A program made the translations under genes and the position numbers. This document shows positions 2,689 through 6,520 of a stretch of 7,294 nt of DNA, one piece after another (position 1 is the first letter of the stretch; each line of letters begins with the position of its first letter). The stretch comes from Pedobacter sp. UBA1654 (lineage in GTDB: Bacteria; Bacteroidota; Bacteroidia; Sphingobacteriales; Sphingobacteriaceae). The stretch covers positions 1-7,294 of the forward strand of contig DCLG01000029.1 of the NCBI GenBank assembly GCA_002320935.1, written 5' to 3'. Below the pieces are notes generated by a model that ran no database searches, had not been told where the DNA came from, and was given only the letters and a program-made list of their open reading frames with translations.

Positions 2689-3306
2689 CTAGACAAGAAG
2701 ATTTTTTGAATTTTCAAGATGGTAGTCCTCCAGCTTTGCTAAAATCCGGATAAGCTCCAGTTTTTCCTGCTGGTTGATGTTCCCGGTGACGTCAATGCTG
2801 GCTTTACGGAATCGAGCCATACTATTCTCAACGGCCTGAACACCTTTTTCAGTGATGCTGATGATTTTATTCCGTTTGTCCTGATCTCCGGTATCTTGTT
2901 TTACAAGCCCATTGGTGATCAAACGGTTAATGATCTGAATACCGGCAGATTTCTCGTGCACATTCAACCGAATCAACGCCGTTTTGGTCATCTCTCCGAG
3001 TGCCTTTAAATTGATGAGGTAGATTAGCTCATCCGGTGTAGCGAAATCTGAACCCTCGATCGCTGCTTTTGCATGCAGTCTTGCATACCGATATAAATGA
3101 AATAATGATGTATTAATTGCACTCTCTGCTGTACGGCCCTTTGATTTTCCAAGCCATTCAGGCTCTGGCAGGGTTGCATGTTCTTCCGACTGGTTCCGCG
3201 TGTAAGTCCATTGTATAAATAAGTCTACATCTTCCGTTTTCGGTCTGACTTCCTTTTCATACTCTTCGACGAGGAGCAGCAGTTCTTGTAGTAATTTATA
3301 CATCAT
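2689..3306 (-). CDS. MarR-family winged-helix transcriptional regulator
   Basis: This 205-residue protein has a MarR-type winged helix. Residues about 88-112 form the first helices (Ala-Thr-Pro-Asp-Glu-Leu, then Leu-Gly-Glu-Met-Thr-Lys-Thr-Ala-Leu). The recognition helix is about 114-131 (His-Glu-Lys-Ser-Ala-Gly through Asn-Arg-Leu), followed by Gly-Leu-Val-Lys and a wing with Asp-Gln-Asp-Lys-Arg-Asn-Lys (141-147), the usual Asp-Lys-Arg wing signature. Ile-Thr-Glu-Lys-Gly (151-155) starts the C-terminal helices used for dimerisation. At 205 residues it is longer than the usual roughly 140-150; the excess is the N-terminal 60 or so residues, which start with a Leu/Glu-rich helix. Two adjacent ATG codons (3304-3306 and 3301-3303) can serve as start. 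The gene is divergent from the fasciclin lipoprotein. Palindromic elements in the shared 174-bp region, one over its own promoter, suggest autoregulation and control of that neighbour. The effector is unknown. Confidence 0.9.
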   Translation of the reverse strand: MMYKLLQELLLLVEEYEKEVRPKTEDVDLFIQWTYTRNQSEEHATLPEPEWLGKSKGRTAESAINTSLFHLYRYARLHAKAAIEGSDFATPDELIYLINLKALGEMTKTALIRLNVHEKSAGIQIINRLITNGLVKQDTGDQDKRNKIISITEKGVQAVENSMARFRKASIDVTGNINQQEKLELIRILAKLEDYHLENSKNLLV

Positions 3307-3480: not shown

Positions 3481-4434
3481 ATGAAAACAATATTCACCCT
3501 TAAAAAGACTGCAACGGTGTTAGCATTGGCAATAATCAGCATGGCCACCGCATGTAGCAAGGACGATGACAATGGACCGGCAATGACTGACCAGAATATC
3601 GTTGAAATTGTAGTAGCAGATAACAGTTTTTCGCTGCTGGAAGCTGCTGTTAAACATGCGGAGCTTGCAACGACACTATCGGGTACTGGTCCGTTTACCG
3701 TTTTTGCACCCACGAATGAAGCCTTTGCTGCTGCCGGCTTAGACACTGAAGCTAAAATTACAGCCTTGCCGAAAGAAGCTTTACGCAACATCTTGCTTTA
3801 CCATGTAACAGGCACAGCCATCCCCGCATCCGGGATCCAGACAGGATCTAATACTGCGGTTAAATCTAGCGCAAACCTTGATCTTTATGTAACCAAAAAC
3901 GACAAGGGTGTATTTATCAACGGTGCCACTGTCACAAAAGCTGATGTAACTGCAACAAATGGTGTAATCCATGTGATCAATAAAGTGCTGATGCCACCAA
4001 GCGGAAATATCGTGCAGGCAGCACAAGGCAACCCAAACTTTAGTTTTCTGGTTGCAGCAGTGTTAAGAGCCAGTCAAGGGCAAACTAACGTTGCCCAGGT
4101 ACTTTCAGGAGCTGGTCCTTTTACCGTATTCGCACCCACCAACCAGGCATTCATCAATGCAGGTTTTGCTAATGAAGCGGCTATACAAGCTGCAGACCCT
4201 GCTATATTGACCAGCATCCTGACTTATCACGTGTTAGCAGGCCGTGTGTTCTCAACTGATCTTGTTGACAACAGTATGCCAGCAACCGTAAACGGAGAAA
4301 CAGTAACCATCACCTTAAATGGAGGCGCGAAGGTTAAAGGCCTGAAGAATACAAGTGCCTCCACAATCAGCACAGCAGATATGCTAACCTCAAATGGCGT
4401 TATTCACGTAATCGATCAGGTACTCCTGCCATAA
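3481..4434 (+). CDS. Lipoprotein with two fasciclin (FAS1) domains
   Basis: The 317-residue product begins with a lipoprotein signal: basic start, hydrophobic core, and lipobox Met-Ala-Thr-Ala-Cys with Cys25 as lipidated residue. Cys25 is followed by Ser-Lys-Asp-Asp-Asp, the type of acidic stretch that sends Bacteroidota lipoproteins to the cell surface. Two FAS1 domains follow, at about 38-171 and 176-317. Each shows the first conserved block (Gly-Pro-Phe-Thr-Val-Phe-Ala-Pro-Thr-Asn, 70-79 and 212-221), a Tyr-His pair (107-108 and 249-250) and the closing Asn-Gly-Val-Ile-His-Val-Ile block (160-166 and 305-311). FAS1 domains mediate adhesion and matrix interactions, so a surface adhesion or cell-envelope role is likely, but no ligand can be named. 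The start is preceded by an A-rich leader typical of the phylum. A strong terminator follows, so it is probably a single-gene transcript, likely controlled by the divergent MarR protein. Confidence 0.92.
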   Translation: MKTIFTLKKTATVLALAIISMATACSKDDDNGPAMTDQNIVEIVVADNSFSLLEAAVKHAELATTLSGTGPFTVFAPTNEAFAAAGLDTEAKITALPKEALRNILLYHVTGTAIPASGIQTGSNTAVKSSANLDLYVTKNDKGVFINGATVTKADVTATNGVIHVINKVLMPPSGNIVQAAQGNPNFSFLVAAVLRASQGQTNVAQVLSGAGPFTVFAPTNQAFINAGFANEAAIQAADPAILTSILTYHVLAGRVFSTDLVDNSMPATVNGETVTITLNGGAKVKGLKNTSASTISTADMLTSNGVIHVIDQVLLP

Positions 4435-4688: not shown

Positions 4689-5933
4689 GTGAGTTTAGAC
4701 CTAATAGACCCTACATTAAATCAAAATCCGCCTTGTACGATGTGCCGCTCGGATAAACTGGCAAATACCACTGAGCACGCTAGCCTTGGCGATCAGGCCT
4801 TAGAATTTTTCAGCAGACTTTTGGACACTGGTGACTGGCCACCCCGCTGGCATTGTGGTCGTTGGACAGACTTTCATGGTTGGTTCTATATTGTTTCGGA
4901 CCTCATGATTGCTGCCGCTTACTTCGCAATACCGTTCTTGCTCTACAAGATTTTAGTGAAACGCAGAGATTTCCCATTTCCTTCACTCATTTGGCTGTTT
5001 ATTGCGTTCATTGTACTGTGTGGCACTACCCATCTAAGTGACGCCATCCTTTTCTGGTGGCCGGCATATCGCTTTAGTGGTCTGCTCCGGTTTGTGACGG
5101 GTGCCGTGTCCATCTTTACAGTAGTGATTCTTTACAGAATTTCGCCCATGATTTTAAGTCTTCGTACACAGGAGCAGTTGGAAACAGAAATCGAAGCACG
5201 AAAGAAAGCAGAGCAAGAGATGAAGCACCAGCAATTGATTCGGGAATCAACCGAAGAATTAATGAGAAAGAAAGATGAATTCATTAGTATAGCAAGCCAT
5301 GAACTAAGAACGCCCATTACAAGCATCAAAGCGTCATTACAAATCATTCAGGGTGCTGTGGCCAAGAATGAAGTTCTTGAGCCCTTCAGACCTATGGTGG
5401 ATAAGTCGGCAACTCAAGTCACTAAACTTACGAACCTGGTTAATGAACTCCTTGATGTTACCAGAATTCAAGCCGGGAAGTTGGGGCTGGTAAAATCAAC
5501 TTTCGTGTTGTATGACCTGGTTAAGGAATCTGTAGAGGGTTCGTTAATTAATAACCCAAATTACACGGTCTTAATCAATGGCGATAAGACGCTTACTGCT
5601 TATGCTGACAGAAACCGGATAGAACAGGTTTTAAATAATTTGCTCTCCAATGCAATTAAATATTCTCCAAAGAACTATCAGATAACAGTTTCATTTGAAA
5701 AACGCTCCAACGGGCAGACGAAAGTAAGTGTCATTGACAACGGAATTGGAATTGAGCAAAGTAAGGTTGCAGATATATTTGACCGATTCTTTCGAGTTGA
5801 ACATACGAACAAGAACTATGCGGGTTTAGGCCTGGGCTTATACATATCAGCTCAAATCATTAAGCAACACCTTGGGGAGATCGGGGTAGATACAGAGCTT
5901 GAGTCAGGAAGTACTTTCTGGTTCGTTCTATAA
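4689..5933 (+). CDS. Sensor histidine kinase with ethylene-receptor-like membrane domain
   Basis: The 414-residue protein starts at GTG. An N-terminal soluble stretch (1-65, with Cys16 and Cys19 and an His-Cys-Gly-Arg-Trp motif at 55-59) precedes three membrane helices (about 66-88, 98-121, 128-150). These helices match the copper-dependent ethylene-binding domain of plant ETR1 and Synechocystis SynEtr1: Asp71, Tyr78, Pro82, Phe107, Ile108, Cys111 and His115 correspond to ETR1 Asp25, Tyr32, Pro36, Phe61, Ile62, Cys65 and His69 with identical spacing. A coiled coil (about 158-195) leads into HisKA with phospho-acceptor His204 (Ser-His-Glu-Leu-Arg-Thr-Pro). The HATPase domain follows, with N box around Asn321, Asp350-Asn-Gly-Ile-Gly (G1), an Asp-Arg-Phe-Phe F box (365-368) and Gly-Leu-Gly-Leu-Gly-Leu (379-384, G2). 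All kinase motifs are intact. There is no GAF domain and no receiver domain, and no response regulator nearby, so the partner is elsewhere. Whether it binds ethylene, copper or another small ligand is untested. Confidence 0.9.
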   Translation: MSLDLIDPTLNQNPPCTMCRSDKLANTTEHASLGDQALEFFSRLLDTGDWPPRWHCGRWTDFHGWFYIVSDLMIAAAYFAIPFLLYKILVKRRDFPFPSLIWLFIAFIVLCGTTHLSDAILFWWPAYRFSGLLRFVTGAVSIFTVVILYRISPMILSLRTQEQLETEIEARKKAEQEMKHQQLIRESTEELMRKKDEFISIASHELRTPITSIKASLQIIQGAVAKNEVLEPFRPMVDKSATQVTKLTNLVNELLDVTRIQAGKLGLVKSTFVLYDLVKESVEGSLINNPNYTVLINGDKTLTAYADRNRIEQVLNNLLSNAIKYSPKNYQITVSFEKRSNGQTKVSVIDNGIGIEQSKVADIFDRFFRVEHTNKNYAGLGLGLYISAQIIKQHLGEIGVDTELESGSTFWFVL

Positions 5934-5962
5934 ATCTTTCAATTTTTCTTCAATCTTTGTGT

Positions 5963-6520
5963 ATGAAAAAAATTACGCTCTCCATTGCGCTAGCCATGTT
6001 GGCTACTTGCGCCTTCGCACAGAAAGATAGTTTATCAAAAGCAGTTGAAGCCAGATCTGCAGCAATTGGCCACACTGGTAATAATGAACTCAAGGTGAAC
6101 ATGTTTTACCTGGTGCTTGGTTTGCCAGAGATCAGTTATGAAAGACTGCTCTCCGACAACATGGGACTAGGTCTATCGGCAACCGTTGGGATTGAAAATA
6201 ACCAGAGCATGCGGTATGCCTTTCTGACAAGCTATCGCTTGTACTTCGGAAACAAAAAAGCAAACGGATTCTTTATAGAAGGCAATGCGGGTGTAGTTAC
6301 AGAGCAAAGAAGTTTTATTATCTATGTACATGAATATGAAAACTTCCTGGTTACCCGTAAAAACAAGGCCTATTTTGGGATGGGCGCTGCTGCGGGCGCC
6401 AAGTTCTTAACCAGGAAAGGATTTTTGGGAGAAGCCTACGTAGGCGCAGGCAGGATGTTGGGGAACAGTAACTCCGATTTATATCCAAGAGTGGGTATTA
6501 CGATTGGCAAGCGTTTCTAA
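5963..6520 (+). CDS. DUF3575 outer-membrane beta-barrel protein
   Basis: Starting from the ATG at 5963 the product has 185 residues. An upstream in-frame TTG at 5957 would only add two residues ahead of a typical Met-Lys-Lys signal start, so ATG is preferred. A signal peptide ends near Ala19-Gln20. The mature part contains the DUF3575 hallmark Asn-Glu-Leu-Lys-Val-Asn (41-46), then Pro-Glu-Ile-Ser-Tyr-Glu-Arg-Leu-Leu (55-63). Alternating hydrophobic and Gly-rich strands follow, and the chain ends in phenylalanine (Lys-Arg-Phe), the C-terminal aromatic signal of Bam-inserted barrels. A small outer-membrane barrel is therefore likely; its cargo or role is unknown. It begins 29 bp after the kinase stop, with no terminator or convincing promoter between, suggesting co-transcription. 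Confidence 0.85.
   Translation: MKKITLSIALAMLATCAFAQKDSLSKAVEARSAAIGHTGNNELKVNMFYLVLGLPEISYERLLSDNMGLGLSATVGIENNQSMRYAFLTSYRLYFGNKKANGFFIEGNAGVVTEQRSFIIYVHEYENFLVTRKNKAYFGMGAAAGAKFLTRKGFLGEAYVGAGRMLGNSNSDLYPRVGITIGKRF

Follow-up and report, generated by a model that had tools for sequence, protein, structure and literature searches.

A 414-residue histidine kinase with a predicted ethylene-binding domain and its relatives in Bacteroidota, Planctomycetota and Verrucomicrobiota

The residues of the plant receptor ETR1 that are essential for ethylene binding are, in what we take to be the full list, D25, Y32, I35, P36, I62, C65 and H69. Papers are cited below by PMC number for the portions of their text that were available. 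Seven residues of ETR1 are described as required for ethylene binding (PMC11819568), most of them being named individually there and in PMC6586836, and ligands of the C65/H69 type are the copper-binding residues of this receptor (PMC6586836). Residue K91 of ETR1 has a predicted pairing with D25 and a role in output (PMC11819568). Plant receptors carry two N-terminal cysteines that form dimer disulfides, and a similar dimer link has been proposed for the single N-terminal cysteine of cyanobacterial receptors (PMC6682694).

Published accounts place putative receptors in many proteobacteria as well as in cyanobacteria, and mention "other bacterial phyla" and a "wide array of bacteria" (PMC11819568, PMC7700396, PMC10518463, PMC6682694), and bacterial ethylene binding is reported in the literature consulted, as far as the portions available go, for cyanobacteria and Azospirillum only. 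Residues 1–130 of AzoEtr1, expressed in Pichia, showed saturable 14C-ethylene binding, and genes with the changes D35A or C75A did not rescue biofilm formation in a mutant, a result to which the authors attach a caveat concerning two-plasmid expression; the AzoEtr1 gene overlaps a gene for a 135-aa single-domain regulator (PMC11819568). A plasmid of A. brasilense Sp7 (locus L077) encodes a 525-aa protein with D35, Y42, I45, P46, F71, I72, C75, H79 and K98, which we identify as AzoEtr1 because its length and its residues D35, C75, H79 and K98 agree with the published protein (PMC11819568). A full-text search of the literature on ethylene receptors with Bacteroidetes, Bacteroidota or Mucilaginibacter found no report on receptors from these groups, the mention of Bacteroidetes that it returned relating to ACC deaminase; the key reviews lay outside its scope.

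The kinase gene and its putative ethylene-binding site

The window, that is, the whole stretch of 7,294 nucleotides that was analysed, contains eight coding regions, and Pfam matches pointing to two-component signalling occur only in that at 4689–5933, whose product we call the window kinase. The features of this gene and of the following one are:

4689..5933, + strand: gene for the EBD histidine kinase (window kinase), 414 aa, GTG start, stop codon included; open reading frame with Pfam ETR1_N, HisKA and HATPase_c, the relative P0003 having likewise 414 aa
4734..4745, + strand: N-terminal cysteine pair C16/C19 (CTMC), presumably extracytosolic; pairs 3–5 residues apart are common in close matches
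4854..4865, + strand: C56 and W59, juxtamembrane signature (RWHCGxW), from conservation in bacterial rows
4872..4961, + strand: predicted transmembrane helix 1, residues 62–91, with D71, Y78, I81 and P82 (AlphaFold2; alignment)
4875..5162, + strand: Pfam ETR1_N (PF25487), residues 63–158, E 3.1e-31
4980..5057, + strand: predicted transmembrane helix 2, residues 98–123, carrying F107 and I108 as well as C111 and H115, the predicted ligands of Cu(I) (both models)
5067..5159, + strand: predicted transmembrane helix 3, residues 127–157, with R134 (ETR1 K91) and S141 (ETR1 S98) (both models; plant alignment)
5169..5270, + strand: helical linker from transmembrane helix 3 to the kinase, the model helix 161–226 continuing into HisKA (AlphaFold2; PAS/GAF match absent)
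5271..5477, + strand: HisKA dimerisation domain, residues 195–263, with the predicted phospho-acceptor H204 (HELRTP) (Pfam; H-box)
5607..5930, + strand: HATPase_c, residues 307–414, with N, G1, F and G2 boxes (Pfam; motif positions)
5957..6520, + strand: next gene, 187 aa, with a weak DUF3575 match below the cut-off and no receiver match, occupying the place of the response regulator of many relatives

The remaining coding regions include, on the + strand, a Gfo/Idh/MocA oxidoreductase (1359–2672), with named relatives in Mucilaginibacter and Dyadobacter of about 69–79% identity, and a lipoprotein-like protein with two fasciclin domain stretches (3481–4434, Pfam); on the − strand lie a 205-aa winged-helix regulator (HTH_27; 2689–3306), a DUF808 protein (20–883) and a DUF3072 protein (952–1221), all from Pfam. 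No Pfam match pointing to copper or ethylene was found in the other genes of the 7.3-kb window. The named relatives of the kinase gene and of the oxidoreductase gene come from Mucilaginibacter, Dyadobacter, Pedobacter and further Bacteroidota, which makes a member of this phylum the most likely host.

The closest relative among the matches listed, the window's own record aside, is P0003 (81% identity), whose N-terminus and 414-aa length match the window kinase as started from the GTG (76% identity over residues 1–165); a start at the ATG of position 4740 would instead shorten the product to 397 aa. The top match listed, P0002, is the window's own protein from a 45-kb contig. Pfam already covers the ethylene-binding family to which this protein belongs: the ETR1_N profile scored 108 bits (cut-off 27), with profile positions 2–97 of 97 aligned, a near-equal value to the 112.3 bits of the plant receptor P0122. 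A first-pass annotation of this DNA had proposed a minimal ethylene- or copper-sensing kinase candidate with an ETR1-type site, and had named a profile search as the way to check it. That search strongly favoured the ethylene-binding domain, and the candidate that the annotation proposed is the best reading. The annotation had also described a direct coupling of the domain to HisKA/HATPase without a GAF domain, in agreement with the absence of any GAF or PAS match in Pfam at E ≤ 0.01. The N, G1, F and G2 boxes of two-component histidine kinases are present at 316, 350, 364 and 379.

Asp71, Tyr78, Pro82, Phe107, Ile108, Cys111 and His115 lie at the positions given by that annotation when residues are numbered from the GTG at 4689 (its interval, 4884–5138, corresponds to residues 66–150), with codons for C111 at 5019–5021 and for H115 at 5031–5033. 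Residues D71, Y78, I81, P82, I108, C111 and H115 align with D25, Y32, I35, P36, I62, C65 and H69 of plant receptors; no gap falls between D71 and H115 in the alignment with the four plant receptors P0122, P0225, P0199 and P0211. For P0122 and P0225, whose numbering was printed, the partners of these residues and of F107 are 25, 32, 35, 36, 61, 62, 65 and 69, and the ETR1 spacing given by the annotation is therefore correct. Since Ile81, equivalent to Ile35 of ETR1, is also present, the window kinase has all seven essential residues.

In a full-length AlphaFold2 model of the window kinase (mean pLDDT 78.6, pTM 0.49), helices span residues 62–91, 98–123 and 127–157, followed by one at 161–226, and the domain modeled alone is helical with a pLDDT of 95.4; the prediction thus gives ETR1_N three transmembrane helices. 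Sequence searches found no solved ethylene-binding domain, and fold searches with the domain returned generic helical matches only and no clear relative. Structure alignments included 49 of the 120 close matches and 63 of the 69 listed domain references.

Conservation of the site was examined in the 120 close matches listed, which are 55–99% identical to the query stretch, and in 77 bacterial rows, including the window, that were left after removing 13 partial domain matches and near-identical two-locus copies; L105, L106 and L109, found by Pfam and missed by the profile built here, are absent from all row counts. When the 116 positions are ranked by conservation in the bacterial rows, the seven site residues take places between the 3rd and the 16th, and 118/120 close matches, among them the window's own protein (P0002), have all seven. 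Position 134, equivalent to K91 of ETR1, is Arg in the window kinase and in 109/120 close matches. Ahead of helix 1, W59 is present in 77/77 bacterial rows, window included, C56 in 72/77 and in 120/120 close matches, and a Cys pair 3–5 residues apart in the N-terminal tail in 101/120 close matches. By analogy with described receptors, C56 and the C16/C19 pair may act in dimer linking.

Distribution, phylogeny and regulator genes

The first-pass annotation regarded receptors of this type as established in plants and cyanobacteria, which stands; a confinement to these groups does not, given that AzoEtr1, from a proteobacterium, binds ethylene and that ETR1_N occurs in 21/395 genomes of Bacteroidota, the phylum of Mucilaginibacter conchicola. 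In the family of this species it was found in 21/201 genomes at E ≤ 0.001 and in 19/201 above the cut-off. ETR1_N was also found in 11/149 Planctomycetota genomes (phylum of a Planctomyces genome), 9/145 Verrucomicrobiota (phylum of Cerasicoccus) and 23/349 Pseudomonadota (phylum of a gammaproteobacterium), every phylum or family survey giving no match in control genomes (0/14). Eighteen plasmid records carry a match, seven of them from Azospirillum. In two Bacteroidota genomes (L043, L045) the ETR1_N match lies within a 1567-aa open frame, and is internal in the available stretch. The ETR1_N matches of L072/L073 and L044 contain or adjoin an in-frame stop and seem to reflect broken genes or sequence errors.

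A tree was built from 81 domains (27 from Bacteroidota, 18 from Planctomycetota, 26 from Pseudomonadota, three cyanobacterial, two from Verrucomicrobiota, four from plants and the window); it rests on few columns, leaves many forks unresolved and is midpoint-rooted on a long branch. The window falls in a clade of 33 rows with support 98/83, formed by 15 rows of Bacteroidota, 16 of Planctomycetota, one of Verrucomicrobiota and the window itself, its nearest rows being L042, Desertivirga and Mucilaginibacter. AzoEtr1 and the cyanobacterial and plant rows are outside this clade, as are 12 Bacteroidota, two Planctomycetota and one Verrucomicrobiota rows; since these three phyla have rows both in and outside the clade, they hold both kinds of domain. 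The clade has a signature of its own, with R53 in 32/33 rows (H in 41/44 other bacteria) and W54 in 33/33 (G in 42/44), and with the further residues G57, G64, F122 and R128.

All seven site residues are present in 29/33 clade rows, 33/44 other bacterial rows and 4/4 plant rows. Four of the 33 clade rows thus miss at least one, three of them at D71: L020 (D71N, I108L, C111G), L050 (D71N), L003 (D71E) and L011 (I81L). Position 134 is R in 11/33 clade rows and K in 20/33, and C56 is found in 31/33, against 41/44 of the other bacterial rows. Core site residues are missing from the ETR1_N-like domains of L020 (C111G with D71N), L059 (C111N) and L103 (H115R), which are possible natural negative controls.

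As the first-pass annotation noticed, there is no adjacent response regulator gene, and a receiver profile built here found none within the 7.3-kb window. This absence is notable because many relatives have such a gene adjoining that of the kinase. A same-strand single-domain regulator gene adjoins the kinase gene in 8/12 usable Bacteroidota clade rows, and in 8/8 of these its first ATG overlaps the end of the kinase gene, as in AzoEtr1. Over the whole clade, 23 usable rows comprise 10 with an adjacent regulator, seven with a fused receiver and six with neither; the 28 usable rows outside it comprise eight, 14 and seven, respectively, one row having both a fused and an adjacent receiver. Rows with a broken frame or little downstream DNA were unusable (9/32 in the clade, 16/44 in the others), except that, outside the set of 12, rows in which a receiver was found were counted as usable even with little downstream DNA. 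L011, left out as unusable, has a receiver gene downstream.

In a second set, from the family of Mucilaginibacter, a regulator gene lies within 60 bases or overlaps in 6/15 rows with an intact domain, L131–L133 being omitted because their domain is not intact. When Sphingobacteriaceae from both sets were pooled, omitting L135, L076 and the window, a regulator accompanied 2/10 kinases of up to 440 aa versus 9/12 of at least 500 aa (Fisher p 0.03, in a post hoc contrast). With 8/10 short kinases of this family lacking a regulator, the window kinase therefore resembles a short orphan form. Short forms are frequent, 96/120 relatives listed having up to 460 aa, lengths that the limits of the search favour.

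Three genomes have two paralogues each. In G987 (L123, L134) the regulator adjoins the 538-aa paralogue and the 420-aa one has none, in G007 (L007, L026) the arrangement is the opposite, with the regulator beside the 417-aa paralogue, and the third is G930 (L119, L135). At L110 (4149–7244), convergent to the nearest genome-borne relative, lie two open reading frames, of 472 aa and of 558 aa, the latter matching the receiver at its N-terminus.

Proposed function and alternatives

With the seven ETR1 residues at the right places, copper binding and ethylene sensing by the window kinase are likely; judged from its sequence, it is probably an ethylene receptor kinase that depends on Cu(I) at a Cys111/His115 site and signals via His204, a proposal in which we infer ligand, copper and output. 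We count in favour of this reading the ETR1_N score near that of a plant receptor, the seven residues, the match to AzoEtr1, the conservation of the site, the pLDDT of 95.4, the kinase boxes and the AzoEtr1-like gene order in 8/12 usable Bacteroidota clade rows. Against it count Arg134 in place of Lys, the site losses in 4/33 clade rows, the separation of the clade from described receptors (in a tree of few columns), the fold searches, the window neighbours, the lack of a regulator gene within 7.3 kb and the fact that no published ethylene or copper binding test was found for any clade protein.

The window kinase would sit in the membrane with its three helices forming the ethylene-binding domain, a fold predicted with high confidence, and the KRR loop suggests a topology with the N-terminus outside and both the loop between helices 1 and 2 and the kinase inside. 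Ethylene would bind at Cu(I) held by Cys111 and His115, and Asp71 may position His115 and pair with Arg134, as predicted for Asp25 and Lys91 in ETR1. Helix 3 would then pass the change along the helical linker, free of PAS and GAF, into HisKA, where ethylene binding would alter phosphorylation of the predicted phospho-acceptor His204; extracytosolic cysteines could hold the dimer together. The acceptor of the phosphate in AzoEtr1, and in many Bacteroidota relatives, would be the single-domain regulator from the overlapping gene; the regulator gene is absent from the window, and the partner would therefore be encoded elsewhere.

In ETR1 the residues equivalent to the predicted ligands bind copper (PMC6586836), and the Cys pair and C56 ahead of helix 1 add further cysteines, as might be expected of a copper sensor in which Cys111 and His115 bind periplasmic or membrane Cu(I) and the kinase reports copper status, ethylene being irrelevant. 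We nevertheless consider a copper sensor quite improbable, because no window neighbour has a copper-related Pfam match and because Y78, I81, P82 and I108, whose equivalents ETR1 needs for ethylene binding besides the two ligands, also rank very high in conservation. A different small molecule (CO, a membrane quinone or an alkene other than ethylene) sensed by the same fold would fit the residues fixed in this clade near the helix ends (R53, W54, G57, G64, F122 and R128), and we found no solved relative tying the fold to one ligand; yet the seven site residues are identical in plant receptors and AzoEtr1, which makes a different ligand unlikely.

A degenerate domain that is no more than a membrane anchor, with a constitutive kinase, could be suggested by the losses of site residues in some relatives and by a partner regulator not in the window; that 118/120 matches listed keep all seven residues across a range of 55–99% identity, and that the kinase boxes are present, renders this very improbable.

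We think it somewhat more likely than not that ethylene receptors have a second major branch, which spans Bacteroidota, Planctomycetota and Verrucomicrobiota and is recognisable by PRWxCGxW and FWWPAYR; the window kinase would be its minimal form (binding domain, straight helix and kinase), with its regulator encoded elsewhere. If such a branch exists, ethylene would be a signal for Bacteroidota such as Mucilaginibacter, far beyond the plant-cyanobacterial line, and if the clade binds ethylene this sense would extend to three more phyla, Mucilaginibacter and related genera among them. In the 414-aa form an ethylene site would be connected compactly to a kinase, which would help reconstitution work and studies of how the Cu(I)-olefin event switches a kinase on or off and would supply a part for an ethylene biosensor. 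Site residues lost in natural relatives, and the change from Lys to Arg, provide ready-made controls.

Comparison with described receptors

The Bacteroidota relatives from Mucilaginibacter (L002, L004–L006), Desertivirga (L003) and Arsenicibacter (L001) belong to the same clade as the window kinase and have a closely similar signature. They differ from it in the PAS domain of L002, absent from the window kinase, and in the overlapping response regulator gene of L001, L002 and L004–L006, whereas L003 has none adjacent.

SynEtr1 from Synechocystis and the cyanobacterial receptors combine, like the window kinase, an ethylene-binding domain with a histidine kinase output, although SynEtr1 has in addition a phytochrome-like light-sensing part (PMC10452086, in the portion available). 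The three cyanobacterial plasmid rows, which do not include SynEtr1, read PHGHC where the window kinase reads PRWHC.

Plant ETR1/ERS1 share with the window kinase the seven essential residues, free of gaps from D25 to H69, as well as S98, 34/96 identical positions and a near-equal Pfam score. They differ in their two N-terminal cysteines, in a segment between H69 and K91 that is longer by three residues, and in the Lys at 91; moreover, the plant receptor P0122 has a GAF domain and a fused receiver, whereas the window kinase, without GAF, is not of the plant type.

In AzoEtr1 the seven residues are spaced identically (D35/Y42/I45/P46/I72/C75/H79), and it too has a juxtamembrane Cys and a histidine kinase output. 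In contrast, its length of 525 aa, the PAS domain before the kinase and the overlapping gene for a single-domain response regulator (PMC11819568, in the portion available) have no counterpart in the window, it has Lys98 where the window kinase has Arg134, and it falls outside the clade of the window kinase. Over 96 domain positions, 38 are identical between the window kinase and AzoEtr1, 34 between the window kinase and the plant receptor and 35 between AzoEtr1 and the plant receptor; with 34/96 versus 35/96, the window domain is therefore as near to the plant domain as is that of AzoEtr1, a known ethylene binder.
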